Assembly (NCBI RefSeq): GCF_002735305.1
Contig: NZ_PDYG01000008.1
Span: 1-64,000, forward strand
Direction: 5' to 3'
Source: Agathobacter ruminis
GTDB lineage: Bacteria > Bacillota > Clostridia > Lachnospirales > Lachnospiraceae
Length of the DNA: 64,000 bases
Of this stretch, positions 7,645 to 49,808 are shown piece by piece. The translations under genes and the position numbers were made by a program. The notes beneath the pieces were generated by a model. It was not told where the DNA came from and did not search any database. It saw only the letters and a program-made list of their open reading frames with translations. Within the stretch, counting starts at the first letter, position 1. The number at the start of each line of letters is the position of its first letter.

Positions 7645-7985
7645 GATTTCAACTTGCTAAAACATTAGATGGAATTGAAAAGTATGGTCCTGTTTATGAT
7701 TTAGGATCGGGCTGGCCGGATAAAATTGAGGAGTATGTTGCAGATGATGTAGATGATTGGTTTTTAAACAATATGGTAGATCAAATTAATGCGTCGTGTG
7801 AAACGTTGCTTGATGACGGGGATTATGATTACCTTGATGCAGAAAAGTGTGCTAAACTTGTAAAACTACTTGATAATATTTCGAATGAATTTATACCGGA
7901 AGAGTATGAGATACCGATAGCCACATTAAAAGATTATGCAATAAGAGCAATTCATAATAATACCGGAATTTCAATTGAATTATAG
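7641..7985 (+). CDS. small acidic protein, possible immunity protein
   Basis: A 114-residue, strongly acidic, probably all-helical protein (Asp/Glu-rich throughout, e.g. VADDVDDWF and LLDDGDYDYLD). It overlaps the preceding basic protein gene by the ATGA at 7641-7644. The opposite charges and coupled translation fit an immunity or antitoxin partner. No family name could be assigned. A GGAGG-type site is formed by AAGGAGATG just upstream. Confidence 0.6.
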   Translation: MRFQLAKTLDGIEKYGPVYDLGSGWPDKIEEYVADDVDDWFLNNMVDQINASCETLLDDGDYDYLDAEKCAKLVKLLDNISNEFIPEEYEIPIATLKDYAIRAIHNNTGISIEL

Positions 7986-7997
7986 GAGGACGAATCC

Positions 7998-8393
7998 ATG
8001 AAATTATCATACAAATTATTCGGTGTTTTTTGGGACCAAAAAGAAATCCCCAAAGAATGTCCTTACGTAGAACTGGTTGAAGATATACTGTCAAATTGGC
8101 ATGTTATTTCATTAAGTAAAATATTGGAACAAGAAGAAGTAGAAGAAATAAAGGAAAGCGCAAAGACAATAGTATTATTGATTGATTATCTTCCAATGGA
8201 AAAAAATACTATTGTAATGGACTTCTTTTTAAAAAGGTTACTTCAAATGACAGAGTATTATCATGCGAGAATGGTATGTACGGATTCTGAAAAAACATGT
8301 CGTTTAAATTTGCTGATAAGTAATTATTACAAAAGAAAAACACCGGAGAGATCGTTGGCGCAATCAGTCGGTGTTTTTCAAACGATATGTTAA
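7998..8393 (+). CDS. hypothetical protein at cassette end
   Basis: A 131-residue, mostly helical, unrecognised protein, last gene of the cassette, with a TAGGAGG site and 12-base spacing from its neighbour. The last residues (about 113-131) are encoded by the terminal hairpin and the right 27-bp repeat, which supplies the stop codon. The C-terminus may therefore have been altered when the repeat arrived. Size and position would suit another immunity-like protein, but nothing in the sequence proves it. Confidence 0.55.
   Translation: MKLSYKLFGVFWDQKEIPKECPYVELVEDILSNWHVISLSKILEQEEVEEIKESAKTIVLLIDYLPMEKNTIVMDFFLKRLLQMTEYYHARMVCTDSEKTCRLNLLISNYYKRKTPERSLAQSVGVFQTIC
8336..8378 (+). terminator. 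hairpin at cassette end
   Basis: Ten-base perfect inverted repeat AAAAACACCG (8336-8345) and CGGTGTTTTT (8369-8378) with a 23-nt loop holding GTTGGCGCA. The terminal T run makes it a plausible intrinsic terminator, although it lies within the 3' end of the preceding reading frame. The hairpin before the left repeat shows the same loop motif. Confidence 0.5.
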
Positions 8394-8407
8394 ACATACC
8401 AAATTGT
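8381..8407 (+). repeat. right 27-bp direct repeat of accessory cassette
   Basis: An exact copy of 6518-6544 in the same orientation, 1,863 bp apart. It ends the accessory cassette and supplies the stop codon of the gene ending at 8393. Beyond it, composition returns to the less AT-rich chromosomal type within about 100 bases. Confidence 0.85.
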
Positions 8408-8462
8408 TCTATTATAATATCATTTATAAAGTACGTATTCAATACTATAACTAAATATTCTC

Positions 8463-8499
8463 GTAGAAGCTGAAATATATTATATTTCAGCTTTTCTAC
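8463..8499 (-). terminator. terminator of the ABC-2 operon
   Basis: A long palindrome, GTAGAAGCTGAAATATA and its complement, with a one-base loop and two extra T residues in one arm. It overlaps the stop codon of the minus-strand permease gene. It can act for that operon and also for transcripts arriving from the cassette. Confidence 0.7.
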
Positions 8500-9671
8500 G
8501 CAACCGCCTTCGCTTTCTTTTGCACATGCATCACGAAGTAAATCGTCATAAATGCAAGTGCGAAGAGCAGTTGCACGCCGAGGTTGAGCAGATATTCATC
8601 CGGGTTGAAGGCTTCTCCGTTGAAACCGGCCAGGATGTTGTTGTTGCGAATAAACCAGTAAGCCGGGAAGAAGCGTGAGATGCGAGTTACATTCTCAGCC
8701 AGCATCCATTGTGGGACGAAAACCCCGCAAAGGAAAGAGCTTCCCAGACCAATGACATTGGCAATCAACTGAAGTGCGTGCTCAGAGAGCGAGAAGGATG
8801 CGATGCACAGTGTCATGGTGACGATTACAATCAGATAGACAAAGCTGTTTGCTGTCATAAGTGCGATTGTCTCAATCGGATCGTAACGGTACATTCCGCC
8901 GAATCCGCCGGCAATCAGGATAATCAGCCATACCAGGATGCTGTAGCAGATGGCACCGAGTCCGATTCCGGCAGCTTTGCGGCGAGGCTTTAAGTAGCTG
9001 CAGGAGATGCGCGCTGCCAGATCTCTGTTATGGAAGGTCATCAGAATCGGTGACATGCTAAGGAGCAGAACTGAGATCAAAATATAAGCAAAATATTGGA
9101 AGAAATATCCGCTTGGAGAATTCCCGTTATTGGTTTTCTCAAAGGTAATCATTTCGACTTCGTTTGCATTTACTTTCTCCATTACATTGGCAGCTTTGCT
9201 TAACGAATCTTCCAAAGATTCAGAGGATGCCTGATAAACGGATAATGCCCGGAAATAGGAATCCACATCCTGGTTAAAGAAATATCCGGCAGCAGAATCG
9301 GTGCGCATGGAATGTGTTACCAGATTCTTGAAATTACCGTTCTTTAATTCTTCTTCGTATCCTTTCGGAATGGTAAGGACATATGAAATTTCTTCATAAT
9401 ACATATTGTCCTGAATCTTCGAAATGTCTTTTCCTTCAAACGAAATATATTTATGTTTGGTAGCCAGATAGTCCGTTAGTGCATGGCTTGCGACGGTATC
9501 ATCCTCGTCGATTACGGTAAATTTCACGGACTTTGCTTCGAATTTTGAAGTGCTGCTTCCCTTATTGATATTGGTCATGACAACCATCAGAATCAGGAAG
9601 ATGATGACATAGATGAAGCAGGTGCCAATATGCTTTTTTGCAATTTGGAAAAAGGTCTTAAAGTTGAGCAT
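8496..9671 (-). CDS. ABC-2 type transporter permease
   Basis: A 391-residue membrane subunit with the ABC-2 layout: one N-terminal membrane helix (about 16-34), a large extracytoplasmic domain (about 35-190), then five helices from about residue 190 to 385. It is the third gene of an ATPase-permease-permease operon, and its start overlaps the preceding permease gene by 14 bases. Paired permeases with one ATPase next to a NarL-type two-component system resemble drug or lipopeptide exporters such as linearmycin-resistance LnrLMN. The substrate is unknown. Confidence 0.85.
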   Translation of the reverse strand: MLNFKTFFQIAKKHIGTCFIYVIIFLILMVVMTNINKGSSTSKFEAKSVKFTVIDEDDTVASHALTDYLATKHKYISFEGKDISKIQDNMYYEEISYVLTIPKGYEEELKNGNFKNLVTHSMRTDSAAGYFFNQDVDSYFRALSVYQASSESLEDSLSKAANVMEKVNANEVEMITFEKTNNGNSPSGYFFQYFAYILISVLLLSMSPILMTFHNRDLAARISCSYLKPRRKAAGIGLGAICYSILVWLIILIAGGFGGMYRYDPIETIALMTANSFVYLIVIVTMTLCIASFSLSEHALQLIANVIGLGSSFLCGVFVPQWMLAENVTRISRFFPAYWFIRNNNILAGFNGEAFNPDEYLLNLGVQLLFALAFMTIYFVMHVQKKAKAVA

Positions 9672-10803
9672 AGGTTTTTCTCCTTGTCATTAAAAATCCG
9701 GTGACACAAAACAGAATGATAAATCCAATAATTGTCAGGATGTTGGTATAAAAACGGCTTAGATCTTCGTACTGGCTTAAGCGGTAAAAACTGTCGGTCA
9801 AAAGAGCTGCCGGGTTGAGTCGATTGACAATCGGAAGGTGATTCTCAATCAGAATATTCATATTTCCAATCATCAATCCGCTCAAAAAGCAAAGCGGCAT
9901 CGTAACTGCGAAGACCAGTCCCTGCTTTGCAGTCTGGTCGAAGTGACCAAAACAGCCAATGAAAAATCCGAGCGATACGCCGACGAAGCAGCCGAGAAAC
10001 ATTGTAAGGACTGTAAACGGCAGGCGGTCCAGCAATTGAATTTTTAAGATGAAAGCCATATAAGCAAATCCGACTGCATTGAGTACAAATTCATAAATGG
10101 TTACGGCAAGCAGTTCCGGAACGATGCGAATCAGTTTGTGGGTCGGGGCAACAGTGATTCGCTTTGCAAGCTCTGACAGGTTTGCCTGGTTGTGACAGGC
10201 AACCAATACCCCACCGACAGCAGTAAACAGACATTGCATTGCAAGCAGGTTAAAGAAATATTGGGTATATGGTGACTGATCCGGATGGCGTCCCAATGAT
10301 TCGTTTGCATTGTAGGTAATCTCGGCTGACAATGCATCAATCATTTCCTGGTACTGCTCCATATGATCCGGCAGCAGTTCTGTCAGGGCATTTACCTGCA
10401 TGTTGTAGCGGTCAACGAAAGTTTTGAGGATGCTTTGCTGCATGCTTTGTTCTTTCATATTCTCCGACACGCTCAGGCGAACCATCTCGCCGGAATGGAG
10501 AATGCCAACAATTTCTTTTTCTTTTAACTGTTCTTTGGCTTCTTCTTCCGTACAGTAGGATGCTTCCAAAAATCCGCCTTTTTCGGTTGACAGCTGCGTG
10601 ATCACATTGTCGAGCTGTTCGTCATATACGGAATCGGATTTCACGATTGCAACCGGGATGGTCGAGATATTTTCTGTCGCTCCAAGATTTCCGAAAGCAA
10701 TTTTGAAGAAGCTTCCGAGAATAATCGGAAAGAGCAGGATCCAAAAGGTATTGGCTTTATCGCGGAAGAGTGTCTTCCAGCTGAATATCATTGTTCTTAA
10801 CAT
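9658..10803 (-). CDS. ABC-2 type transporter permease
   Basis: A 381-residue ABC-2 permease with the same architecture as its neighbour: a helix near residues 20-40, an extracytoplasmic domain to about 180, then several membrane helices including GFAYMAFILKI and LTMFLGCFVGVSLGFFIG. The two permeases presumably form the heterodimeric membrane channel for the ATPase encoded just upstream, 12 bases away. An AGGGAGG site precedes the start. Exported compound not predictable. Confidence 0.85.
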   Translation of the reverse strand: MLRTMIFSWKTLFRDKANTFWILLFPIILGSFFKIAFGNLGATENISTIPVAIVKSDSVYDEQLDNVITQLSTEKGGFLEASYCTEEEAKEQLKEKEIVGILHSGEMVRLSVSENMKEQSMQQSILKTFVDRYNMQVNALTELLPDHMEQYQEMIDALSAEITYNANESLGRHPDQSPYTQYFFNLLAMQCLFTAVGGVLVACHNQANLSELAKRITVAPTHKLIRIVPELLAVTIYEFVLNAVGFAYMAFILKIQLLDRLPFTVLTMFLGCFVGVSLGFFIGCFGHFDQTAKQGLVFAVTMPLCFLSGLMIGNMNILIENHLPIVNRLNPAALLTDSFYRLSQYEDLSRFYTNILTIIGFIILFCVTGFLMTRRKTYAQL

Positions 10804-10815
10804 AACTTCCTCCCT

Positions 10816-11757
10816 TTAATCGCGTAATTCTTTTCCTGTGATTTCCAAAAAGACATCGTTCAATGTCGGAAGTGCGGAATGAATATGTCCGAAGGAATAT
10901 TCTTTGCCCTGCAGATAATCCAGTACGCGAACGAGATTGTGGCTTCCGCCGTCACAGAGAATTGTCAGTTTGGAATCTTCAAAGGTGACAGAATAGACAT
11001 GTGGAAGTGCCTTTAATGCCTCGATGTCATCTGCGGTGACAGATAAGATATCGATGGTGATGATTTCGCGTTTCTTAATCAGCTTTTTCAATTCTTCCGC
11101 AGTTCCCTGAGCAATGCATTTTCCATTATCGATAATAGCAATGCGAGAGCAAATCTGTTCTACTTCTTCCATATAATGGGAGGTGTAAATGATGGTTGCG
11201 CCCTGTCTGTTTAATTCCATAATGCCTTCGAGAATGCGGTTTCGGCTCTGCGGATCAACAGCTACGGTTGGCTCATCCAGGATGATCAGTTTTGGCTTGT
11301 GCGCGATTCCGCAGGCAATGTTTAGGCGGCGAAGAAGACCACCGGATAACTTCTTTGGATAGAATTTGCGGAAGTCTTCGAGTCCGGTGAACTGAATCGC
11401 TTCTTCTACATATTGCTTGCGCAGCTGCTTGTCATTGATGTATAATCCGCAGAAATAATCAATGTTTTCCTGGACAGTCAACTCCTCAAATACAGCAACA
11501 TTCTGCATGACCACACCGATTTTTGCTTTGATATCATAGGCGTCAGCTTTCATCGGTTTTTCGAAGATTTCAATCTCCCCATTGTCATAAGACAAAAGTG
11601 AAAGAATGCAATTGATCGTTGTGGTCTTGCCGGAACCGTTTGGTCCAAGCAATCCAAAAATTTCCCCCTGCTTGATTTCAAGATTCAAATGGTCAACCGC
11701 CAGCAGTTCGCGATAGCGTTTCACCAGTTCCTTTACCTTTACGGCTGTTTCGTTCAT
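10816..11757 (-). CDS. ABC transporter ATP-binding protein
   Basis: A 313-residue ATPase subunit energising the two ABC-2 permeases. It has Walker A GPNGSGKTT, signature LSGGLLRR (a variant of LSGGQ), Walker B LIILDEPTVAVDP and switch His in TSHYMEEVE, plus a C-terminal extension of about 90 residues as in DrrA-type drug ATPases. I chose the ATG at 11757 because AAGGAGGAG stands in front of it; an upstream ATG at 11775 overlaps that site. The three genes lie close together and diverge from a two-component system. Confidence 0.9.
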   Translation of the reverse strand: MNETAVKVKELVKRYRELLAVDHLNLEIKQGEIFGLLGPNGSGKTTTINCILSLLSYDNGEIEIFEKPMKADAYDIKAKIGVVMQNVAVFEELTVQENIDYFCGLYINDKQLRKQYVEEAIQFTGLEDFRKFYPKKLSGGLLRRLNIACGIAHKPKLIILDEPTVAVDPQSRNRILEGIMELNRQGATIIYTSHYMEEVEQICSRIAIIDNGKCIAQGTAEELKKLIKKREIITIDILSVTADDIEALKALPHVYSVTFEDSKLTILCDGGSHNLVRVLDYLQGKEYSFGHIHSALPTLNDVFLEITGKELRD

Positions 11758-11848
11758 ATATAACTCCTCCTTCATTGTTTTCGTTTTGTTGTATTAAGCA
11801 TAATGCTTCACCGGAATGAAAAACAGTGTTAGATGTCAGAACTTCAAA

Positions 11849-11862
11849 ATGACATTTGTCAT
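11849..11862. promoter_or_regulatory. palindrome in divergent promoter region
   Basis: The perfect inverted repeat ATGACA-TT-TGTCAT lies in the 172-base region between the ABC transporter operon and the histidine kinase gene. Another TGTCA occurs at 11834. It is a natural candidate for the binding site of the adjacent LuxR/NarL-type response regulator; this is inference from location and symmetry. Confidence 0.45.
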
Positions 11863-11929
11863 ATTTTATGATAATCTTAATTTATGTTTGTTTTTGCAAT
11901 CAAAAGGCGTATGAAGAAAGCGAAAATGT

Positions 11930-13036
11930 ATGAGGGAGATAGTAGAAAAAAATCTGATATTGGTTTCCGGAATCATTCTTCTTGTGCTGACCACACAGGA
12001 AAATTATATCGTGATTGCAAGCCTGATTGGAATCATTGAAACGGAAAGCGCAATTGTACTTCAATATTTGTTTGACGATAAGAGAGTAGATTACGGATGG
12101 ATGATACTTTGTCTGTGCATCTCATTTTTGTGGTGGCCATTGCTATTCTTTATGCCGGTGATTTCTTTTTCACTCGCACAAAAGGAAAAATGGCTGTTTA
12201 TCCCCATACTGTTGCTGCCGTTTGCCGCAGAATATGCAATTGATTCTCCTTTTTTTGACAGGAAGTGGCCGGTCTGCACACTGGGAATTTTAATGGTACT
12301 TGCGATGCTTTTGGCCTATGAAAACTTAAAAGCAACCGCATATCGCCGTCAGTTTCTCAATCAAATCGATTCGTCGGTTGCACTCGAAAACAAATTGCAG
12401 CAACGCAATGCAGAGCTCCTTGCCAGCCAGGATGACTCGGTGCGGTTGGCGACCTTGCAGGAGCGAAATCGAATTGCGCGAGAAATTCATGATAATGTTG
12501 GTCATATGCTGTCCCGTACGATTTTGCAGACGGGAGCGTTGCTTACGATTTATAAAGAGGAGCCGCTTCACGGACAGTTGCAAAGCGTGAATGATTCGAT
12601 GAATGAAGCGATGAATAATATTCGTGAGAGTGTACATGATCTTCACAATGATTCACTCGACTTAAAGCGCTCGGTAGAGGAAGTACTTGCTGAGTTGCGT
12701 GCGCATTATCAGGTTGATTATGAATATGATATGGGAACGGAAATTGCCAGCAACGTCAAATATTGTTTTCTTGCAATCGCAAAGGAAGCTACTGCGAATA
12801 TCATCAAGCATTGCGACGGAACCAAAGTGTCTGTTGTTTTGCGAGAACATCCGGGATTTTATCAGATGATGGTTGCTGACAACGGAACCGGGAAGATTGA
12901 CCGAGAGCATGGCGGAATTGGACTTCATAATATGGAAGACCGTGTGAAGGCAATCGGTGGAACGATTTCCTTTTCAGATGTAAATGGATTTAAGATATTA
13001 TTATCGATTCCGAAGGAACAGGAGGGAATAAAATAG
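11930..13036 (+). CDS. two-component sensor histidine kinase
   Basis: A 368-residue HisKA_3-type kinase. The N-terminal ~130 residues form about five membrane helices. Next come a linking coiled coil (140-175), the dimerisation/phosphoacceptor motif RNRIAREIHDNVGH with His187, and an HATPase domain (N-box KEATANIIKH, then DNGTG and GGIGLHNM). It shares one base with the downstream regulator gene (TAGTG). The arrangement beside a divergent ABC-2 exporter is typical of systems that sense antibiotics or envelope stress and induce their own exporter. No extracellular sensor domain is present, so sensing probably occurs in the membrane. The start codon is uncertain. Confidence 0.88.
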   Translation: MREIVEKNLILVSGIILLVLTTQENYIVIASLIGIIETESAIVLQYLFDDKRVDYGWMILCLCISFLWWPLLFFMPVISFSLAQKEKWLFIPILLLPFAAEYAIDSPFFDRKWPVCTLGILMVLAMLLAYENLKATAYRRQFLNQIDSSVALENKLQQRNAELLASQDDSVRLATLQERNRIAREIHDNVGHMLSRTILQTGALLTIYKEEPLHGQLQSVNDSMNEAMNNIRESVHDLHNDSLDLKRSVEEVLAELRAHYQVDYEYDMGTEIASNVKYCFLAIAKEATANIIKHCDGTKVSVVLREHPGFYQMMVADNGTGKIDREHGGIGLHNMEDRVKAIGGTISFSDVNGFKILLSIPKEQEGIK

Positions 13037-39975: not shown

Positions 39976-40057
39976 ATAAGCACTGAAATGCATTGTGTGT
40001 TTATACAAAAAGACGAATAAACGGACAGTCATAAGAGAGAAAAGGAGAAGAATTACT

Positions 40058-40405
40058 ATGATTAAGAGAACCTACGAAGAACTGGAACCTTATTTCCCGG
40101 CAGGCCACTTTGGGGTAACCTGCAAGCGCTATCATGGAAAGGACGAGACCGGAGCCAGCAAATTCTGGATCGGGGTATCTGAGTTTGAGCCGGGCGGTGG
40201 CGCTGACTGGGCTTATGAAGACAACCCATTGGAGAAGGTTTACTTTGTACTTGAGGGAGAAATGACCGTTACCGATAAAGATGGCAACAAATATGTCATC
40301 CATGCGAATGAATCCATTTCTTTCCCACCAAATGAGGGAAGAGGATTGAAGAACGAATCTGACAAGCCTGCAAAGATGCTTGTTATCATCAATTATCCGG
40401 AATAA
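40058..40405 (+). CDS. cupin-domain protein
   Basis: A 115-residue single cupin barrel. The conserved region runs [29 protein letters not shown] (first motif, partly quoted) with few of the usual metal-binding histidines: the first motif lacks the HxH pair, so metal binding is doubtful. It is the first gene of the phloroglucinol-type cluster, 31 bases before the SDR gene, with AAAGGAG at the start. It may bind the substrate or assist a pathway enzyme; the function is not determinable. An upstream in-frame GTG at 39995 overlaps the leader and is unlikely. Confidence 0.8.
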
Positions 40406-40436
40406 AATCGGGAACCGTAATCAGGAGGAAATAAAA

Positions 40437-41231
40437 ATGGTTAAAGTAGAAAAAAGTTATGTAAATAACATGTTTTCAGTAGAAGGAAAAGTAGCACTCG
40501 TTACCGGTGCGACCGGAGCACTTGGCTCTGTTCTCGCTAAGGCATACGGATATGCAGGAGCAAAGGTATTCATGACCGGCCGTAACGATGCAAAATTAAA
40601 AGCTTTGGAAGAAGAATTCAAGGCAGAAAATATTGATTGTGCATATTTCGTTGCAGATCCTGCAAAAGAAGATGATGTAAAAGCTCTGGTAAAGGCTGTT
40701 GTCGAGAAATACGGTGAGGTAAACATCCTTGCAATCGCGCACGGATACAACAAGCCTGCAAACATTCTTGATCAGTCTGTTGCTGACTGGCAGTATATCA
40801 TGGACGCAGACTGCAAGTCTGTATATATTGTCTGCAAATATGTTGCTGAGCAGATGGTTGCTCAGGGCAAGGGCGGCAAGATGGTAGTTGTTACTTCTCA
40901 GCGTTCAAAGAGAGGTATGGCAGGATATACCGGATATTGTACTTCCAAGGGCGGTGCAGATCTGATGGTATCTTCCATGGCTTGCGATCTTACTGCAAAA
41001 TACGGCATCAATGTCAACTCTATCTGCCCGACCGTATTCCGTTCGGAACTGACCGAGTGGATGTACGATCCGGAATCAGAAGTTTACAAGAATTTCTTAA
41101 AGAGAGAGCCAATCGGCCGTCTCGGAGAGCCGGATGACTTTGTTGGATTTGCATTATTCTTATCATCAGATGCTGCAAAATTCATGACCGGTGGCAACTA
41201 CGATTGCTCAGGCGGATATCTTACCTGCTAA
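40437..41231 (+). CDS. SDR reductase, probable phloroglucinol reductase
   Basis: A 264-residue classical short-chain dehydrogenase/reductase. The cofactor motif is TGATGALG (residues 23-30), and an Arg in MTGRNDAK suggests NADPH. Catalytic Ser is in VVTSQRS, Tyr/Lys in YCTSKGGAD, and a glycine-rich C-terminus follows. In the known anaerobic pathway, phloroglucinol reductase is an SDR that reduces phloroglucinol to dihydrophloroglucinol with NADPH. The assignment rests on the neighbouring cyclase-family, BKACE and HCDH-type genes matching the later steps; by sequence alone it could be a 3-oxoacyl or sugar reductase. CAGGAGG precedes the ATG. Confidence 0.72.
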
Positions 41232-41279
41232 GAGCGGAGAGAATAAAATATTTGTTTTAATGAATAGGAGGATTATAAG

Positions 41280-42287
41280 ATGGCAAAAGTTGTTGTAGAT
41301 TTGGCACATCCGTTTAGTGCAGAAATCCCTCGTTGGCCTTATTTTGACAAGCCTGAAATCGTGGGCGCACATACGATGGCAAAGGGTGGTGTATTAACCC
41401 AGAGAATTACCTGTACCATGCATACCGGAACACATTGTGATGCTCCACGTCATGTTATGGAATATGAATTTGACGGCAAACGTGCTCGTTATACACACGA
41501 GATGCCTGCTGATGCATATGCGGGAGAGGCAATTGTATTTAAAATTGATATCGAGCCATGGGGACTGATCACCGATAAGCATCTTGATGCATGTATGAAG
41601 AAGTACGGCTTAAAGGACGGTGACTTAAAGGGCAAGATCCTTTGCTTAAATACAGGAATGCATCGTCTGTTTGATGATTCCAAGGCATATTATCATTATG
41701 CAGCAGGTACCGGAATCGATGCAGGAAAGTGGTTTGTAAAGCAGGGCGTTAAGTGTGTTGCAATGGACAGCCAGGCACTTGATCATCCGCTTCATACGGC
41801 TATGGGTAATAACGGTATGACCAGAATGAATCTTCTCGGTGCAACCGGATATCCGATTACAGAAGAATACAAGCAGCTCTTTGGCGAGGAAGCTTATGCG
41901 GAATTCGACAAATTTGAATACATCCGTATCCATGGCAAGGAAGCTTATGAGAAGAAATTCGGCGAACTCGAAGACCTCGGCATCTGGGGAACATGGGAGC
42001 CATGCCACAAGGAAATGCTCGGACATGGTATCGTAGGTGTAGAAAACCTCGGTGGTGATCTCGACCGTATCAGAGAAGGTAAGTGGTTTGAGTTCCATTG
42101 CTATCCAATCCGCTGGTACATGGGTGATGGTTCTATGGCTCATCCGGTAGCTTATGTAAACGAAGAAGATGTTGACATGAGCGTTCCGGAGCGTACTTAC
42201 AAATATTGCGGAACCGGATATGGTGATCCGGAAGGAAACGGAGACAGCTGTCTGGAATATATGCAGAGACTGTTTAACCGTAAATAA
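41280..42287 (+). CDS. cyclase-family hydrolase, probable dihydrophloroglucinol cyclohydrolase
   Basis: A 335-residue metal-dependent hydrolase of the kynurenine-formamidase/cyclase family. The motif HTGTHCDAPRH (about residues 43-53) supplies metal ligands, and MDSQALDHPLHTA and GIVGVENLGGDL are further conserved blocks. At 335 residues it is longer than simple formamidases (about 210-260), with extra sequence between about 185 and 260. In the anaerobic phloroglucinol route this type opens the ring of dihydrophloroglucinol to 3-hydroxy-5-oxohexanoate. The gene follows the SDR by 48 bases with AGGAGG. The substrate is inferred from context. Confidence 0.72.
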   Translation: MAKVVVDLAHPFSAEIPRWPYFDKPEIVGAHTMAKGGVLTQRITCTMHTGTHCDAPRHVMEYEFDGKRARYTHEMPADAYAGEAIVFKIDIEPWGLITDKHLDACMKKYGLKDGDLKGKILCLNTGMHRLFDDSKAYYHYAAGTGIDAGKWFVKQGVKCVAMDSQALDHPLHTAMGNNGMTRMNLLGATGYPITEEYKQLFGEEAYAEFDKFEYIRIHGKEAYEKKFGELEDLGIWGTWEPCHKEMLGHGIVGVENLGGDLDRIREGKWFEFHCYPIRWYMGDGSMAHPVAYVNEEDVDMSVPERTYKYCGTGYGDPEGNGDSCLEYMQRLFNRK

Positions 42288-42304
42288 TCAAACGAATAAC
42301 GCCG

Positions 42305-42334
42305 GCAACTGTCCTTGAAAATCGGGACAGTTGC
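42305..42334 (+). other. intercistronic hairpin
   Basis: Perfect 10-bp stem GCAACTGTCC/GGACAGTTGC with a 10-nt loop between the cyclase-family and BKACE genes. The following sequence TTGTGGTTTT is only moderately T-rich, so it may tune downstream expression or protect the mRNA rather than end it. Confidence 0.65.
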
Positions 42335-42359
42335 TTGTGGTTTTAGGAAAGGAAATAAA

Positions 42360-43199
42360 ATGGCAAAAAAGACAATTATCACAGTGGCTTGTACAGGAGC
42401 CTGGCCAAAAAAGGAGAACAACCCAAATGTTCCGATGACTCCTGCAGAAATCGCAGAGGATGTCTATGATTGCTGGCAGGCAGGTGCAGCAATTGCTCAT
42501 TTACATATGCGTGACGACGAGGGTAATGGAACCATGTCAGCTGACAAATTCCGTGAGACCGTGAACCTTCTTCGCACCAATCATCCGGATTGCGATATTA
42601 TTTTGAATCTGACAACCTCCGGAGATCTGAATGCAACTGATGAAACCCGTCAGATCCATCTGAAGGAATTGCGTCCGGAAATGGGATCATATGATTGCGG
42701 TTCCATGAACTGGTTAAATTCCGGATTATTTATCAACTCTCCGAAATTCCTGGAAGAATTGGGACATAATATGCAGGAGTGGGGTGTAAAGCCTGAAATC
42801 GAGGCATTTGACCCTGGTATGATTGCAAATGCTGCATATTATTTGAAGAAAGGTGTGTTAAAAGCACCGCTTCATTTCCAGTTCTGCATGGGCTGTGCAA
42901 ATGGTATTCCGGGTTCCATGAAGAACCTGATTTTCATGAAAGAAACCATGGAAAGCTTATGCCCGGGTTCTACCTGGAGTTGCTTCGGTGTCGGCAAGAG
43001 CGCACTTGAGATGACTTACGGTGCCATTGCATTGGGCGGACATATCCGTGTCGGAATGGAAGACAATGTCATGTATGCAAAGGGCGTATTGGCAGACAGC
43101 AACCGTCAATTCGTAGAGCGTGCGGCTCGTCTGATTCGTGAGTATGGCAACGAGGTTGCAACTCCGGATGAAGCACGCGAAATCTTAGGTTTGAAATAA
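42360..43199 (+). CDS. BKACE-family enzyme, probable triacetate acetoacetate-lyase
   Basis: A 279-residue beta-keto acid cleavage enzyme (Kce-like TIM barrel). Marks are IITVACTGAWPKK at the start, AIAHLHMRDDEG with the metal-binding His-x-His, NLTTSGDLNAT, PEIEAFDPGM, and HFQFCMGCANG. The family condenses a beta-keto acid with acetyl-CoA to give acetoacetate and an acyl-CoA. For triacetate (3,5-dioxohexanoate) the products would be acetoacetate and acetoacetyl-CoA. AAAGGAAA precedes the ATG. The stop overlaps the next small gene by one base. The specific substrate is inferred from the cluster; a lysine-fermentation-type Kce is the alternative. Confidence 0.78.
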   Translation: MAKKTIITVACTGAWPKKENNPNVPMTPAEIAEDVYDCWQAGAAIAHLHMRDDEGNGTMSADKFRETVNLLRTNHPDCDIILNLTTSGDLNATDETRQIHLKELRPEMGSYDCGSMNWLNSGLFINSPKFLEELGHNMQEWGVKPEIEAFDPGMIANAAYYLKKGVLKAPLHFQFCMGCANGIPGSMKNLIFMKETMESLCPGSTWSCFGVGKSALEMTYGAIALGGHIRVGMEDNVMYAKGVLADSNRQFVERAARLIREYGNEVATPDEAREILGLK

Positions 43200-43390
43200 T
43201 GACCTGGGGACCGAGCTTCATGTACTACATCTGTCCGAACTGTGGGAAAAAATTTAAATACGCCCTGGATATGATCCCTGAATTTGGCGACGACTACGGC
43301 AAATGTCCTGTTTGCGGAACGATGGGAACTTATGAAAAAGACGGAGCCCGCACGAAAGATGATGCAGATTATGAAGAAGTAGACGAATAA
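43199..43390 (+). CDS. rubredoxin-like / zinc-ribbon miniprotein
   Basis: A 63-residue protein with two CxxC knuckles, ICPNCGKKF and KCPVCGTMG, separated by about 22 residues, and an acidic tail (DDADYEEVDE). The CPxCG pairs could bind zinc as a ribbon or iron in a rubredoxin-like way. It starts at the TAATG overlap with the BKACE gene; MYYICPNCG at 43220 is an alternative start. It is tightly embedded between two pathway enzymes, so a structural or electron-transfer role with one of them is possible. No function is known to me. Confidence 0.75.
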   Translation: MTWGPSFMYYICPNCGKKFKYALDMIPEFGDDYGKCPVCGTMGTYEKDGARTKDDADYEEVDE

Positions 43391-43416
43391 TCTTTTTCTG
43401 AGAAAAGAGGCAGGAA

Positions 43417-44346
43417 ATGTTTGATATCAAAGAAATATTAATTTGCGGCGGCGGTATGATGGGAAAGAACATTGCATTTGTAATGGCTTCCAACCCGGAA
43501 TATCAGGTCACCGTATATGATTTGTATGAGACCGATGTGGCAGGAGGCATTCGCACCAATACCAGACAGCTGGTGGAAAAAGGTGTCATGACGGATGCGG
43601 ATATCGACGATCGTTTGAGCCGTATTACATTCACCACCGACATCGATTCTCCACTCATCGCAAAAGCAGACCTTGTGATTGAGGCTGTTTTTGAGGATAT
43701 GAAGATTAAGCAGGAGACATTCGCAAAGCTTGAGGCAAGATGCCGCGAGAATACCATCTTCTGTACCAATTCTTCTGTTATGAGCCCATCACAGATTTCC
43801 GAGAAGTTGCAGCATCGCGAGCGCTTTGTCGGAACACATTTCTGGAATCCGGGCCATCTGATTCCGCTCGTTGAAGTCATTAAGAGTGATGCTTCTTCGG
43901 ATGAAGTGGCACAGACAGTGATGGAAGTGCTTCGCAAGGCAGGCAAGAAGCCGGTCCTTTGCAAAAAGGATGTACCGGGCTTTATTGCCAATCGTATGCA
44001 GCATGCGCTTTGGCGTGAGGCAATCTACATTGTGGAGAGCGGAATCGCAGATGCCGCAACCGTAGATGAAGCTGTCAAATATGCATTCGGACTTCGTCTT
44101 CCACAGCTTGGACCGATGGAGAATGCAGATATGGTCGGAACAGATCTGACCTATAATATTCATGATTATATCTTGAAAGACTTATGTGATTCACATGAGC
44201 CGTCGCCGCTTTTGACGCAATTGCGCGACGAGGGCAAGCTTGGATTTAAATCCGGAGAAGGTTTCCAGAAATGGACACCGGAACAGGTTGCAAAATCCAA
44301 TGCCGATTTGAATGAGTATCTTATTCGGATGCTTTACGGAAAGTAA
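43417..44346 (+). CDS. 3-hydroxyacyl-CoA dehydrogenase-type protein, probable 3-hydroxy-5-oxohexanoate dehydrogenase
   Basis: A 309-residue NAD(P)-dependent dehydrogenase of the 3-hydroxyacyl-CoA dehydrogenase superfamily. The Rossmann motif is ICGGGMMGKNIA. VIEAVFEDM, the catalytic His in GTHFWNPGHLIPLVEV, DVPGFIANRM and a C-terminal helical domain are all present. In the phloroglucinol route an enzyme of this kind oxidises (S)-3-hydroxy-5-oxohexanoate to triacetate. It has a GAGGCAGG site and lies 26 bases after the miniprotein gene. A true hydroxybutyryl-CoA dehydrogenase is the main alternative, but it is not next to crotonase or thiolase genes. Confidence 0.75.
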   Translation: MFDIKEILICGGGMMGKNIAFVMASNPEYQVTVYDLYETDVAGGIRTNTRQLVEKGVMTDADIDDRLSRITFTTDIDSPLIAKADLVIEAVFEDMKIKQETFAKLEARCRENTIFCTNSSVMSPSQISEKLQHRERFVGTHFWNPGHLIPLVEVIKSDASSDEVAQTVMEVLRKAGKKPVLCKKDVPGFIANRMQHALWREAIYIVESGIADAATVDEAVKYAFGLRLPQLGPMENADMVGTDLTYNIHDYILKDLCDSHEPSPLLTQLRDEGKLGFKSGEGFQKWTPEQVAKSNADLNEYLIRMLYGK

Positions 44347-44353
44347 AATAAAT

Positions 44354-44375
44354 GCGGGGGAGTTTTCTCTCCCGC
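44354..44375 (+). other. hairpin before hxlR gene
   Basis: Stem GCGGGGGAG/CTCTCCCGC with a TTTT loop (one G-U pair), 8 bases after the dehydrogenase stop. No strong T run follows, so termination may be partial. Confidence 0.6.
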
Positions 44376-44406
44376 AGATTTCAATGCATGACTAGAGGAG
44401 TAATGT

Positions 44407-44862
44407 ATGAGCGATCAGGAAAAAAGAGATCCGGTTAACCCATATCACTATGCACTGCATTGTATGGGCGGCAAATGGAAGATGACCATTTTACATGAAA
44501 TGTACACTTATGGCCAGATTCGTTTCAATCAGACATTGAAAGTGTTGCCGCTTTCGGAGAAAGTTTTAAGTCAGCAGTTAAAAGAACTGTGTGCGGATGG
44601 ACTGGTGGAACGAATTGTGGATGGCAATGCACATCCGCCATTGATTCATTATCAGTTGACAAAAGAGGCGGAGGAACTGATTCCGGCTCTGGATATTTTG
44701 TATGTATGGTCCATTCGCCAAATGAAAGAAAAAGAAATTCCGATTGACACGGATGCTTATGTAGTGCATCAGTCGGAAAAATATATGGAAGCTTTGAAAG
44801 ATGTCATCGATTCTGAGGAGATGAAGAATATTTCCAGAAGACGCGTTCATGGCGACTTGTGA
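44407..44862 (+). CDS. HxlR-family transcriptional regulator
   Basis: A 151-residue winged-helix regulator. The HxlR core spans about 12-100: YHYALHCMGGKWKMTILHEM, then RFNQTLKVLPLSEKVLSQQLKELCADGLVER and the wing HPPLIHYQLT. The usual N-terminal cysteine of HxlR redox sensors is represented by Cys16 in the GGKWK-preceding segment (LHCMGGKW). Several relatives (YodB, CatR) respond to quinones and phenolics, which suits a polyphenol cluster. It sits between the pathway genes and the redox module, with GAGGAG at the start. The probable operator is upstream of 40058. Confidence 0.87.
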   Translation: MSDQEKRDPVNPYHYALHCMGGKWKMTILHEMYTYGQIRFNQTLKVLPLSEKVLSQQLKELCADGLVERIVDGNAHPPLIHYQLTKEAEELIPALDILYVWSIRQMKEKEIPIDTDAYVVHQSEKYMEALKDVIDSEEMKNISRRRVHGDL

Positions 44863-44937: not shown

Positions 44938-46383
44938 ATGAAAAAATTAGAAGCAGATGTAGTAGTTGTAGGTGCAGGCCCTTCCGGACTCGCAGCATCC
45001 GTTCAGGCAGCGGATGACGGAGCAAAGGTTGTGGTATTGAACAAGGCGGATGTTGTCGGTGGTGCCGCAAACATGGGAATGGGACCACTCGGTATCGGAA
45101 CCAGACAGCAGCAGGCGCAGATGGTTGACATTGATGTAGAAAAAGCTTTCAAAATGTTTATGGATTATACCCATTGGAGAGTTGATGCCAACCTTGTAAA
45201 GAAATATTTTGAGAATTCAAAGGATACCATCGAATGGCTCGAGGATATGGGCGTAGAATTTGCAGGCGCATATCCGTATTTCCCGAAGTCAGAGGCAACC
45301 TGGCATATTGTGGCAGTCAATGGCGGAATCGGCCGTAACGGCGGTGCAATCATGAACAAGGCCATGATGGACAAGGGAACCGAGCTCGGTGTGGAATATC
45401 TGAATTCCGTTACCGTTGAATCCATTACAATGGATGGCGGAAAGGTGTCCGGTGTCAAGGCAAAAGCGGCAGACGGAGAAGAAATCGAAGTTTCCGCAAA
45501 GGCAGTCATTATTGCGACCGGTGGAGCAGGCGATTCACCTGAATATATCAAAGAGCGTATGGGATATACCTGGGGCGAGGATATGTTCAACTTCCGTATT
45601 CCGGGACTTGAGGGCGACGGAATTAAGATGGCAATTGCTGCAGGTGCTGCGACCACAGAGATGAATATCGAAATGATTTATGTATTGCCAAATACAGATA
45701 TGATCGAGCCATTGCCGGCGGTATTTATGCAGCCGAACCTGATGGTAAACAAATTCGGTCGTCGCTTCATCAATGAGGAGCAGATGCAGAATACTACCTT
45801 TACCGGAAATGCAATTAATATCCAGAAAGGATCTGTCGGATATTCTATTTTTGACTCATCCATTTTGAAGGGATATAAGAAGAGAGGACTCGACGTGGTC
45901 AACTTCGTACATCATCCGGAAAATCTTGATGAATTTGACGAAGTGCTCGAAGCACAGATTGCCGGAGGCAATCCTGATGTTTATATGGCAGATACCATCG
46001 AGGAACTTGCAGAAAAACTTGGTATCGATCCGGAAGCTTTGGCAGATACCGTAGATGAATACAATGATATGTGTGATGCGGCTGATACTCAGTTCTACAA
46101 ACCACGCAAATTCATGAAGCCAATCCGCAAAGCACCATTCTATGCAGGCGCATTCCGCCCGTCAGGATATGGTACACTCGGCGGAATCAAGGTCAATGAC
46201 AATATGGAAGTATTGAAACCGGATTGGGAAAAGGTACCGGGCCTGTTTGCATGCGGAACCGATACATGTACCATTTACGGTGACAGCTACATGTTCCTGC
46301 TGCCGGGTAATACCATGGGATATTGTCTGAATTCCGGTCGTTTTGCCGGTGAAGGCGCAGCTGATTATGCAAATGAAAATTAA
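44938..46383 (+). CDS. FAD-dependent oxidoreductase, fumarate-reductase-like
   Basis: A 481-residue flavoprotein of the FAD_binding_2 (fumarate reductase/ketosteroid dehydrogenase) type. It starts with VVVVGAGPSGLAASVQA for FAD, then GGAANMGMGPLG, NGGIGRNGGA, VIIATGGAGDSPEY, and near the C-terminus RPSGYGTLGGIKVN and GLFACGTDTC. Such enzymes reduce or introduce a C=C bond next to a carbonyl. There is no secretion signal or heme domain, so electrons must come from a partner, probably the two Fe-S proteins encoded next. A substrate within polyphenol breakdown is plausible but not shown. ATG 44938 follows GGAGG. Confidence 0.82.
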   Translation: MKKLEADVVVVGAGPSGLAASVQAADDGAKVVVLNKADVVGGAANMGMGPLGIGTRQQQAQMVDIDVEKAFKMFMDYTHWRVDANLVKKYFENSKDTIEWLEDMGVEFAGAYPYFPKSEATWHIVAVNGGIGRNGGAIMNKAMMDKGTELGVEYLNSVTVESITMDGGKVSGVKAKAADGEEIEVSAKAVIIATGGAGDSPEYIKERMGYTWGEDMFNFRIPGLEGDGIKMAIAAGAATTEMNIEMIYVLPNTDMIEPLPAVFMQPNLMVNKFGRRFINEEQMQNTTFTGNAINIQKGSVGYSIFDSSILKGYKKRGLDVVNFVHHPENLDEFDEVLEAQIAGGNPDVYMADTIEELAEKLGIDPEALADTVDEYNDMCDAADTQFYKPRKFMKPIRKAPFYAGAFRPSGYGTLGGIKVNDNMEVLKPDWEKVPGLFACGTDTCTIYGDSYMFLLPGNTMGYCLNSGRFAGEGAADYANEN

Positions 46384-46439
46384 GCATTTGTCAGAAAACC
46401 AATAGATTAGAGAAATAAAAGAGAAGAGAGAGGGATCAA

Positions 46440-48557
46440 ATGGGAACAGTTCAATTAACCATTGATGGTTATAAGATTGAGGCAGATGAATCCAAAACCG
46501 TCTTAGAGGCTGCTTTGGATAATGGCATCTACATTCCTCATCTTTGCCATCATGAAAATCTTCATCCGAATGGAGGATGTCGTCTCTGTGTTGTAAAACA
46601 GGACGGAGTCGACGGTGTGATTACATCATGCTCCACAAAAGTAAAAGAGGGAATGGTGATTCATACCAAAGACGAGCAGGCGGAAGCAATCCGCAAGCTT
46701 TCTTGTGACTTCATGTTCAAAACGCATCCGACAGAATGTACCGGATGTCCGAAATACGGTAAATGCCAGCTGGCATCAATTTCACAGTATGTCGGAGATA
46801 CCGGACGCGATCTGCGCTATTGCCAGATTCGTGTGACCGCAGACGAGAGCAATCCGCTCATGTTGCATGAGATGCATCGCTGTATTCTTTGCGGACGCTG
46901 TGTCAGAGCCTGCAACGAAATGCGTGGTGTAGGTGCATTGAAATTTGAAAAGGTTGACGGAAGAATGCGCGTCGTAATCAATGGCGACAGCCTTGAAGAA
47001 GCAGGATGCCGTTTCTGTGGCGCCTGCGTGGAAGTATGCCCGACCGGTTCCATCCGCGATAAGGTTGGCGTATTTGATGACAATCTTCCAAAGGAGCGTG
47101 CACTGGTACCATGCCGTGAGGCTTGTCCTGCACATGTCAATGTGCCGAAGTATATCCGTTATATCAACGAGGGCAATTATGCGGCAGCTGCAGCAACCGT
47201 TCGCGAGAAGGTTCCGTTCCCGGAGACTTTGGGTTATGTCTGTGTGCATGACTGCGAAGCAAATTGTAAGAGAAACTTCTTAAATGGTGCGGTATCCATC
47301 CGCAACTTAAAGAGATATGCAGCATCGCAGGATGACGGGTCATGGAAGAAGAATGCATTCCAGAAGCCGGATACAGGCAAGAAGGTTGCAGTCATCGGAT
47401 CCGGTCCGGCAGGATTGACGGTTGCATATTATATGAGAAAGCTCGGCCATGAAGTGACTGTATTTGAGAAACTGCCGAAGGCAGGTGGACAGATGCGATA
47501 TGGTATTCCTTCTTATCGTCTCCCGCGTGAGGTTCTCGATGCAGAAATCGCAGAGATTGAAGCAATCGGTGTTAAGATCGAATGCAACAGCGAAGTGAAG
47601 AGCGCCGTAGAATTAAAGAAAGATTATGATGTTGTCTATGCAGCAATCGGAACACATGCAGGAAACAAGCTTCCGCTTGAAAACAATGATCTGCCGGATG
47701 TGTATCTGAATGCAGACTTCCTGCGTGCAGAGAATCTTGGAAATCCGCTTCCGGTTGGAGAGAATGTTGTCGTTTTGGGTGGTGGTAATGTTGCCATCGA
47801 CTGTGCGGAAACCGCAGTCAGACTTGGTGCAAAGCATGTTGTTATGACCTGTCTTGAGGCACCGGACAAGATGACCGCTTCTGCGGAAGAAGTGACATGG
47901 GCAAAAGAGGATGGAATCATCGTAGAAAATTCCAGAACCTTTGATGCAATTGTTGCAGAGAATGGCAAAGTGACCGGTCTGACCGTTACCGGAATTGAAG
48001 GACTGAAATTCGGACCGAAGGGACCGGAATTCACCAGAATCCCGGATTCTACCGTAACCTTCCCGGCCGATACCGTAATCTTTGCAGTCGGACAGCATCC
48101 GGATGTGACAGAAGAATTCGGTGTGGAATTGAACCGCGGTCGTATCGTGGTGAATCCGGAGACCTTTGCAACCAATATCGAGGGCATTTATGCATCCGGA
48201 GACTGTGTCACCGGAACCAGATCTGTCATTCAGGCTGTCGGAGAAGCACGTCTTGCTGTATCCGCAATGGATCAGTATCTCGGCGGAGATGGCAATATCG
48301 AAGAGAATCTGGCACCGGAGCAGGATGCAAATCCATGCATCGGCAAGGCTACAGAGGCACAGCGTGCTAACCGTACCGAACCGAGAACCATCGATGCGGC
48401 AGACCGCGTAAAGAATTTCGAGCCAATGGATCTCGGATTCGACTGCAGCATGGCAGGCTGTGAGGCAGACCGCTGTCTCCAGTGTGATTTAAGACTTCAG
48501 ATTGCACCTCAGAAATTCTGGAGCGATTATGTTCCTGAGGAAGGAGGCGCAGAATAA
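46440..48557 (+). CDS. ferredoxin domains fused to GltD-like NAD(P)H oxidoreductase
   Basis: A 705-residue soluble electron-transfer flavoprotein. The order is a NuoG-like [2Fe-2S] domain (CHHENLHPNGGCRLC), a His-Cys cluster segment (HPTECTGCPKYGKC), two [4Fe-4S] motifs (CILCGRCVRAC and CRFCGACVEVC), then a glutamate-synthase small-subunit (GltD/NfnB-like) part with CREACPAHV, FAD motif VIGSGPAGLTVAYYM and nucleotide motif VLGGGNVAIDCAE. This design occurs in SfrB-like and NADP-reducing hydrogenase-like complexes. It would pass electrons between NAD(P)H and the Fe-S chain. The stop overlaps the next gene by one base (TAATG), so the two form a complex. Confidence 0.85.
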   Translation: MGTVQLTIDGYKIEADESKTVLEAALDNGIYIPHLCHHENLHPNGGCRLCVVKQDGVDGVITSCSTKVKEGMVIHTKDEQAEAIRKLSCDFMFKTHPTECTGCPKYGKCQLASISQYVGDTGRDLRYCQIRVTADESNPLMLHEMHRCILCGRCVRACNEMRGVGALKFEKVDGRMRVVINGDSLEEAGCRFCGACVEVCPTGSIRDKVGVFDDNLPKERALVPCREACPAHVNVPKYIRYINEGNYAAAAATVREKVPFPETLGYVCVHDCEANCKRNFLNGAVSIRNLKRYAASQDDGSWKKNAFQKPDTGKKVAVIGSGPAGLTVAYYMRKLGHEVTVFEKLPKAGGQMRYGIPSYRLPREVLDAEIAEIEAIGVKIECNSEVKSAVELKKDYDVVYAAIGTHAGNKLPLENNDLPDVYLNADFLRAENLGNPLPVGENVVVLGGGNVAIDCAETAVRLGAKHVVMTCLEAPDKMTASAEEVTWAKEDGIIVENSRTFDAIVAENGKVTGLTVTGIEGLKFGPKGPEFTRIPDSTVTFPADTVIFAVGQHPDVTEEFGVELNRGRIVVNPETFATNIEGIYASGDCVTGTRSVIQAVGEARLAVSAMDQYLGGDGNIEENLAPEQDANPCIGKATEAQRANRTEPRTIDAADRVKNFEPMDLGFDCSMAGCEADRCLQCDLRLQIAPQKFWSDYVPEEGGAE

Positions 48558-49666
48558 TGAAGAATTTATTAGTAGTAAGCTGTTTGAAAGATGATAATTA
48601 TGCGCATATCTCCATTCACTTACTGAAGGAGAAACTTGCGGATGTCAAAGCAGGTGTGGAGAAAAAGGCTGCAGAACTGCAGGCAGATGTACTCTATCTG
48701 CTTCCGGAAGGCGAAAAAGTCGATGGAATCGATTGTGAAGTCCGCTATGGAGCATACAATCCAACCCTTGGAAATCCATATTCCGTCGCTCAGCTTCTGG
48801 CAGGAAATCTTCCTCGTCCGATGATTCAGGATGATTTTGTTGCAACTTATGAGGATTACGAAGTATCCGTAATGACTCCGGAAGAAGCATATCTGCTTGC
48901 AACCGGCAAGAATGTCCGCTTTGTAGCTGTGACAGCCGACGGCAAGACTGAAATCAAGGAAGTGGAAATCGGCACCAAAGCAGGAAGCATCTGCGACGCA
49001 GGCTCTGCAAAGGCTGTTTTGATCGGTGGTCAGAAGGGTACTTTTGTCAAACCGGAATCGCTTGCGGATTATGAAATCCGTGCAGATCGCGATGATTATG
49101 CCATTACCGTATTCAATCAGGATGAATGTATGGTTCAGACTGCGGTTTCCATTATGGAGCAGGCATGGGCTTCTTCCTGCGGCAAGTGTGTACTCTGCCG
49201 TGAAGGTACCTTACAGTTCAAGACCATTGTCACGGAGATGACAACCGGAAAGGCAAAGGTGACAGACCTTGATCTCATCAGGGAAGTCGGTGAACTGATT
49301 GAAATCGGTGCATATTGTCCGTTTGGCCGCGCCATGGCAAAACCGTTGATTTCTGCAGTAAATCTGTTCCAGGATGAATTCGAGGAGCATATCAAGAGAA
49401 AGACCTGTAAGTGTGGCAAGTGCTACAAGGCAGCAGCGGTTTATCTCATCCTTCCGGATCTGTGTACCGGTTGCGGCGATTGTGTCGATGAATGTGATGA
49501 AGATGCAATCGACGGAAAGGCCAACTTCATCCATATGATCGATCAGGATATGTGCGAGCAGTGTGGCAAGTGCGTATCGGCATGCGACGAGGATGCGATT
49601 GTGAAGTGGGAGGATGCGAAACTTCCGAAACTTCCAAAGAAACTGACCAAGGTCGGAAAATTCTAA
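48557..49666 (+). CDS. NuoF-like Fe-S protein lacking NADH/FMN site
   Basis: A 369-residue protein equivalent to the C-terminal half of NuoF/HydB. It has the SLBB-like region, the [4Fe-4S] segment SSCGKCVLCREGT (about 211-223), and two C-terminal ferredoxin motifs (CTGCGDCVDECDED, CEQCGKCVSACDED). The N-terminal ~120 residues look like a shrunken FMN domain: the GRGGAGFPTG glycine loop and the NADH-binding Glu-rich loop of NuoF are absent. It probably serves as an electron wire between its GltD-like partner and the flavoprotein encoded upstream. It is translationally coupled to the preceding gene and ends the cluster. Confidence 0.83.
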   Translation: MKNLLVVSCLKDDNYAHISIHLLKEKLADVKAGVEKKAAELQADVLYLLPEGEKVDGIDCEVRYGAYNPTLGNPYSVAQLLAGNLPRPMIQDDFVATYEDYEVSVMTPEEAYLLATGKNVRFVAVTADGKTEIKEVEIGTKAGSICDAGSAKAVLIGGQKGTFVKPESLADYEIRADRDDYAITVFNQDECMVQTAVSIMEQAWASSCGKCVLCREGTLQFKTIVTEMTTGKAKVTDLDLIREVGELIEIGAYCPFGRAMAKPLISAVNLFQDEFEEHIKRKTCKCGKCYKAAAVYLILPDLCTGCGDCVDECDEDAIDGKANFIHMIDQDMCEQCGKCVSACDEDAIVKWEDAKLPKLPKKLTKVGKF

Positions 49667-49686
49667 AACGAAAAAACACTGATGAG

Positions 49687-49726
49687 ATGAAGCAGATTTC
49701 GGATTTCCGGAACCTGCTTCATTTTT
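49687..49726 (+). terminator. terminator of catabolic cluster
   Basis: Stem ATGAAGCAG/CTGCTTCAT with an 18-nt loop that can partly pair (TTTCCGG), followed by TTTTTC. It lies 20 bases after the stop of the NuoF-like gene. Confidence 0.85.
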
Positions 49727-49808
49727 CTTGTGTGGGAACAAAATATCGGTATAATGAAAGATAGCAAGAATCATGAAATAGAAGATAGAAGATAGAAGAG
49801 GACCGGTT

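Follow-up and report, generated by a model that had tools for sequence, protein, structure and literature searches.

The window, by which we mean the whole stretch of 64,000 nucleotides of Agathobacter ruminis DNA, carries two adjoining groups of genes on its forward strand (Table 1). The genes at 39995-44862, upstream of the trio described below, match in their families (SDR, cyclase, BKACE and 3HCDH) the phloroglucinol pathway that Zhou et al. (2023) characterised (PMC10470551), and are joined by a cupin and an HxlR-family regulator. As the set of PGR, DPGC, TAL and TfD is complete without the trio, we rejected the idea that the trio is part of the four known phloroglucinol steps, in line with the earlier note, which had regarded it as dispensable for them. 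The HxlR protein was also considered as the trio's own regulator and dismissed, as HxlR goes with the phloroglucinol cluster elsewhere.

Table 1. Genes of the phloroglucinol cluster and of the adjoining redox trio in the window.
Gene	Position	Strand	Description
cupin	39995-40405	+	opens the phloroglucinol cluster in the window as in related loci
PGR-like	40380-41231	+	phloroglucinol reductase (SDR); Pfam, PMC10470551
DPGC-like	41280-42287	+	dihydrophloroglucinol cyclohydrolase (cyclase family); Pfam, PMC10470551
TAL-like	42315-43199	+	triacetate acetoacetate-lyase (BKACE); Pfam, PMC10470551
TfD-like	43417-44346	+	3-hydroxy-5-oxohexanoate dehydrogenase; 3HCDH domains; gene order and families as in PMC10470551
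HxlR-family regulator	44407-44862	+	Pfam; elsewhere encoded divergently to the cupin gene
FP	44935/44938-46383	+	482 aa from GTG 44935; FAD flavoprotein, cytosolic; proposed ene-reductase head
FUS	46440-48557	+	705 aa; [2Fe-2S] and 4Fe-4S (NuoG/HydA-type) N-terminus fused to GltD/StnC-like FAD-NAD(H) domain
NUOF	48557-49666	+	369 aa; NuoF/HydB-like Fe-S protein, C-terminal 2x[4Fe-4S]

The three genes of the trio, all on the + strand, are closely spaced: FP starts at GTG 44935 or ATG 44938, with the HxlR gene ending 72 nt upstream, FP and FUS are separated by 56 nt, and FUS and NUOF overlap by 1 nt. A consensus scan of the + strand between HxlR and FP gave no promoter-like site, such scans being weak evidence, and no evident signal peptide was seen by eye at the start of any of the three proteins. 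Pfam assigned FAD_binding_2 to FP, Fer2_4, a NuoG-type 4Fe-4S domain, Fer4_20 and Pyr_redox_2 to FUS, and NADH_4Fe-4S with two Fer4 domains to NUOF; in the same Pfam domain search, neither an FMN_bind nor a haem domain was found in FP. Open reading frames, Pfam and a motif scan thus agree with the make-up first read from the DNA, namely a fumarate-reductase-like flavoprotein, a ferredoxin-GltD fusion and a NuoF-like protein without NADH/FMN site. In a near relative (L031:15030-16139), an Abhydrolase_3 gene lies between NUOF and the downstream peptidase; the window (49667-49808) is without it.

The trio is a conserved redox unit, beyond chance neighbours. With FP as the only query, 84,980 genomes yielded 25 loci, and FP, FUS and NUOF were contiguous in 21 of these, the remaining four lying on contigs that are cut beside FP or FUS. 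Among the FP-bearing genomes are those of Catenibacillus scindens, Anaerobacterium chartisolvens, Parasporobacterium, a Treponema and many Lachnospiraceae. Pairwise distances among the three proteins correlate with r = 0.83-0.89 (18 loci; FP versus FUS, 0.89), values to be compared with at most 0.42 in 2,000 shuffles. The coherent module that the earlier note had postulated is thus supported as a conserved unit. The window genome has one FUS but three FPs. One of the two FP paralogs outside the window (L071) lies beside DgpB/C-like, FLR-family and Gfo/Idh genes, and the other (L072, contig C3) is found in an operon-like run with FLR-family and Phy-like genes.

The unit travels with phloroglucinol genes, for which DPGC was used as marker in the genome searches. 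DPGC was present in 17 of the 25 genomes that had been recovered with FP alone (69-95% identity, E <= 1e-89) versus 8 of 390 genomes of the class (Fisher p = 1.5e-18); within this class sample, which leaves out the window's own genome, FP occurred in 6 genomes, DPGC in 8 and both in 3 (p = 1e-4), and of the 60 genomes that represent the window's genus, 4 had a FUS ortholog (at least 70%), with DPGC in 3 of those and nowhere else (p = 0.002), all of these p-values overstating independence, as the sets contain many draft MAGs and the genomes share ancestry. The pattern recurs across several families. Physical linkage of the trio and the phloroglucinol genes, as in the window, is seen in L031, and on a single 15.8-kb contig in L158. 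In L074, from another genus of the same family and with an FP that is 50% identical, phloroglucinol genes, Phy, an FLR-like gene and FP-FUS-NUOF lie within 14 kb, and in another family the order is DPGC-TfD-PGR-cupin-NUOF-FUS-S15-ACP-Buk-FLR (L130). The distance amounts to 31 kb in G486 and about 15 kb in G321, and the contig of L034 ends in a cupin that is 65% identical to the window's cupin. The contiguity of the trio and its co-occurrence with DPGC led us to reject a chance neighbourhood with the phloroglucinol cluster. In G321, a 1005-aa ORF and an Fe-S protein that by eye resemble the pyrogallol-phloroglucinol transhydroxylase pair also adjoin the phloroglucinol cluster (L129:12534-16387).

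The second association is with enzymes of flavonoid breakdown. A recurrent neighbour that could be taken as an 'NADPH-dependent FMN reductase' was reassigned to the FLR family, as its sole PDB match is 7D38, the flavone reductase FLR of F. plautii (PMC7862272). A full-length FLR ortholog (E 1e-139 to F. plautii FLR) is located directly upstream of FP-FUS-NUOF in L034, and 19 loci have FLR-family genes in the vicinity of FP or FUS, a number to be read against the about 8 such genes in the 2.86 Mb of the window genome. A 279-aa neighbour belongs to PF18089, the phloretin-hydrolase (Phy) family, which was found in 14 of the 25 FP genomes but was absent from all 13 controls taken from the same bacterial family and from all 14 well-known genomes. 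Phy and FLR stand together with the trio in L074 and L079, and about 36 kb of contig C33 in G321 contain the trio, the phloroglucinol genes, Phy with a further Phy-like gene, an FLR-like gene as well as a 62% FLR, and a chalcone isomerase (PF18232). The window genome's own Phy-like gene (L072:10488-11225) is a weak match, with 22.0 bits versus the PF18089 cut-off of 22.7. A divergent Phy-like protein with 21.1 bits against the same cut-off is encoded beside a chalcone isomerase at L134:9302-9976, and both divergent genes are close to an FLR-family gene. Taken together, the associations with DPGC, FLR and PF18089 bear out the supposed tie of the trio to polyphenol breakdown, and no unrelated pathway emerged as the regular company of the trio.

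In C. butyricum, the gene order is flr-fcr-phy (PMC11868195). The MAGs of C. faecigallinarum CHK178-757 (99% complete) and C. faecavium CHK196-3395 have a reported FLR and no listed Fcr (PMC11170127), and both carry the trio, DPGC and PF18089 (L047 and L045). As C. scindens carries the trio (L044) together with two reported Fcr candidates (PMC11170127), the trio is not a simple Fcr replacement everywhere. L074 has an OYE-type gene at a distance of 3.7 kb from the trio, and among the loci of the class sample (L119-L124, L184-L189) no OYE gene was seen next to FLR or Phy.

As to the flavoprotein, the best NCBIfam family for FP is VprA vinyl phenol reductase (NF053717), with 306 bits versus a curated cut-off of 600. 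The AlphaFold2 model (pLDDT 90) has a fold like those of flavocytochrome c3 (Fcc3) and urocanate reductase UrdA (TM up to 0.80), KstD and cyclohexanone dehydrogenase. In Fcc3, we take Arg402 to be catalytic, and His504 and Arg544 to bind the carboxylate. These three positions align with FP Q285, which is never Arg among 36 relatives, Y412, which is Tyr in 35 of 36 relatives, and Y452, which is Tyr in all 36. Judged from the aligned residues, a neutral enone would fit the FP active site better than a carboxylate, as the carboxylate clamp is missing. Despite the common fold, active-site residues and family scores made us reject FP as a fumarate, urocanate or steroid enzyme, and neither kind of evidence gives the match to a steroid or urocanate reductase that would have pointed to another role.

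Concerning the electron supply, the closest solved chains to FUS are 9bov_A, 8oh5_C and 9n5u_A. FUS residues K291, R360 and E473 are invariant in all 31 relatives; K291 and R360 match StnC K170 and R239, and Lys291 is the cluster ligand of the Stn type, not the Glu ligand of the Nfn type. Where these three chains and 5jca_L have YRR, with the NADPH-binding Arg pair, FUS has CLE with Glu473, and the replacement of the Arg pair by this invariant residue suggests that NADH, not NADPH, is the donor. As to NUOF, the five NuoF motif patterns for FMN/NADH were all absent throughout its 28 relatives. PDB sequence matches to HydB/StnB cover residues 133-350, and as the model still aligns with HydB/StnB/NuoF over nearly the full length, the NADH/FMN domain is eroded and not cleanly deleted. 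The layout NAD(P)H -> Fe-S -> FAD proposed in the earlier note can thus be kept, with the donor refined to predicted NADH, and the simplest reading is a linear path NADH -> FAD -> Fe-S -> FAD(FP).

We consider it an evenly balanced proposition that the trio works upstream of the phloroglucinol pathway as a soluble ene-reductase that depends on NADH, most likely in the conversion of a flavanone or chalcone to the dihydrochalcone; the NADH donor, the direction of electron flow, the formation of a complex and the substrate are what we infer. FUS would oxidise NADH at the GltD-type FAD, and electrons would pass singly through the Fe-S clusters of FUS and then of NUOF to the FAD of FP, which would add two electrons and two protons across the conjugated double bond of a neutral phenolic enone. 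In the most likely reaction, a flavanone or chalcone would be reduced, or reductively opened, to a dihydrochalcone, phloretin-hydrolase-type or similar acyl cleavage of which would give phloroglucinol, which could then be fermented via the adjacent PGR-DPGC-TfD-TAL genes. That an upstream polyphenol intermediate is reduced had already been proposed, and from the company of DPGC, FLR and PF18089, an enone seems the most plausible one.

Four other explanations have to be weighed against this reductase. That the trio is a VprA-like reductase of vinyl-phenol or hydroxycinnamate side chains, serving as an electron sink with substrate released by nearby esterases, seems unlikely: no curated family scores higher for FP than VprA, several loci have LysR neighbours reminiscent of vprR-vprA, and the trio has Abhydrolase_3/BD-FAE genes next to it in L034, L037, L038 and L041, but FP falls far short of the VprA cut-off, and a hydroxycinnamate reductase would leave the co-occurrence with DPGC, PF18089 and FLR unexplained. 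A role of FP heads in C-glycoside breakdown, reducing an unsaturated keto-sugar or another product of DgpBC-type C-deglycosidases, is suggested by the DgpB/DgpC-like (C-glycosidase) and Gfo/Idh genes beside FP in L048, L054, L055, L071 and L073, and we regard it as distinctly unlikely, as most FP loci, the window included, are without these genes and the company of DPGC, FLR and PF18089 is more widespread. Since some FP loci adjoin C-glycosidase genes and not Phy, FP paralogs may nevertheless differ in substrate. It is very unlikely that FUS-NUOF chiefly feeds electrons to FLR while FP has an unrelated job; in FLR assays, a separate reductase provided the FMNH2, and FLR does not depend on NAD(P)H (PMC7862272), and L130 and L135 have FUS-NUOF with FLR-family genes and no adjacent FP, but the contiguity of FP with FUS-NUOF and the tight correlation of FP and FUS distances argue against it. 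A bifurcating complex, in which NAD(P)H would reduce both a C=C bond and ferredoxin in a coupled manner, is highly improbable although FUS and NUOF resemble parts of HydABC, Stn and NfnABC and the NUOF C-terminus is a two-[4Fe-4S] ferredoxin-like domain, because the invariant Lys at the proximal cluster is the signature of Stn, in which the GltD FAD is reported to be non-bifurcating and the FMN of the NuoF-like subunit bifurcates (PMC10482914), and the FMN site used in Stn/HydABC bifurcation is lost from NUOF, so that the bifurcation-like energy coupling once envisaged for the trio found no support. These features concern FUS and NUOF, and the FAD of FP itself could conceivably bifurcate.

The ene-reductase reading can be extended. 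FUS-NUOF could be an NADH-fed hub for several FP heads, and perhaps for FLR, which together with an ATP gain by ACP-Ptb-Buk would constitute an undescribed route of flavonoid fermentation, a picture that we regard as unlikely in its entirety. Acyl cleavage would then take place onto a carrier protein (S15 or thiolase with ACP), and Ptb and butyrate kinase would gain ATP from the side chain. The FUS-NUOF of the window may serve all three FPs of its genome.

Several gene sets near these loci deserve mention on their own. A CocE/S15-type hydrolase, an ACP, a phosphotransacylase and a butyrate kinase make up an operon that recurs, in many cases next to the trio or to phloroglucinol genes (L070 (G000:C133) 7792-11990, L034, L038, L043, L046, L055, L130), without the phosphotransacylase in L130 and with the ACP fused to the hydrolase in L043; this points to the transfer of a flavonoid-derived acyl group to ACP, from which ATP would be formed. 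A thiolase occurs near FLR-like genes in L048, where it has a zf-ChsH2 domain, L071 and L135, with ACP, Ptb and Buk also present in L048 and L135, and it may provide a thiolytic route in place of S15 or phloretin hydrolase. In L119, L120, L122 and L123, Phy-family genes are paired with a different flavoprotein of ~560 aa (FAD_binding_2/Succ_DH_flav_C) and a 2x[4Fe-4S] ferredoxin of ~80 aa, in L119 with the flavoprotein fused to the Phy-family hydrolase (813 aa), possibly another dihydrochalcone-forming system.

The characterised enzymes of anaerobic flavonoid breakdown are few, namely FLR, Fcr, CHI and phloretin hydrolase. Surveys that score Fcr only would list trio genomes as being without the reductive step, and C. 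faecigallinarum and C. faecavium may be such cases. If our reading is true, a second, non-homologous reductive system, supplied by an NADH-fed Fe-S donor of its own, would alter the predictions as to which bacteria of gut, rumen and soil are able to ferment dietary flavonoids.

We found no description of such a three-part enzyme among the open-licence papers that were searched, and the known systems each resemble a part of it. Fcr of Eubacterium ramulus, the flavanone/flavanonol-cleaving reductase formerly termed enoate reductase, catalyses the NADH-dependent conversion of flavanones and flavanonols to dihydrochalcones between FLR and phloretin hydrolase, the same step that is proposed for the trio. 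The putative trio reductase is unrelated to this OYE-type Fcr, the characterised enzyme for the flavanone/chalcone to dihydrochalcone step: the C. butyricum Fcr candidate, compared by its description, is an FAD-dependent oxidoreductase with an alpha/beta-barrel domain (PMC11868195), whereas FP has no such barrel and only FAD/NAD-binding flavoprotein matches, and its Fe-S subunits are encoded separately. VprA of Lactiplantibacillus plantarum, of about 480 aa, reduces phenolic C=C bonds and is the closest curated flavoprotein family; however, a review describes no partners of the FUS/NUOF type for it, and FP reaches about half of the family cut-off. With fumarate reductase Fcc3 and UrdA, FP has the FAD_binding_2 fold in common, but it lacks R402, H504 and R544 as well as the haem domain and FMN_bind. 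With Stn/NfnABC (8oh5, 9bov, 9n5u), FUS shares the 2Fe-2S domain, the GltD domain and the Lys cluster ligand, although the FdhF-like C-terminal part is absent from it and the NADPH motif is replaced by Glu, and NUOF shares with StnB the NADH_4Fe-4S and 2x[4Fe-4S] half without the FMN/NADH site. To this electron-transfer core, the trio adds FP as the likely terminal acceptor.
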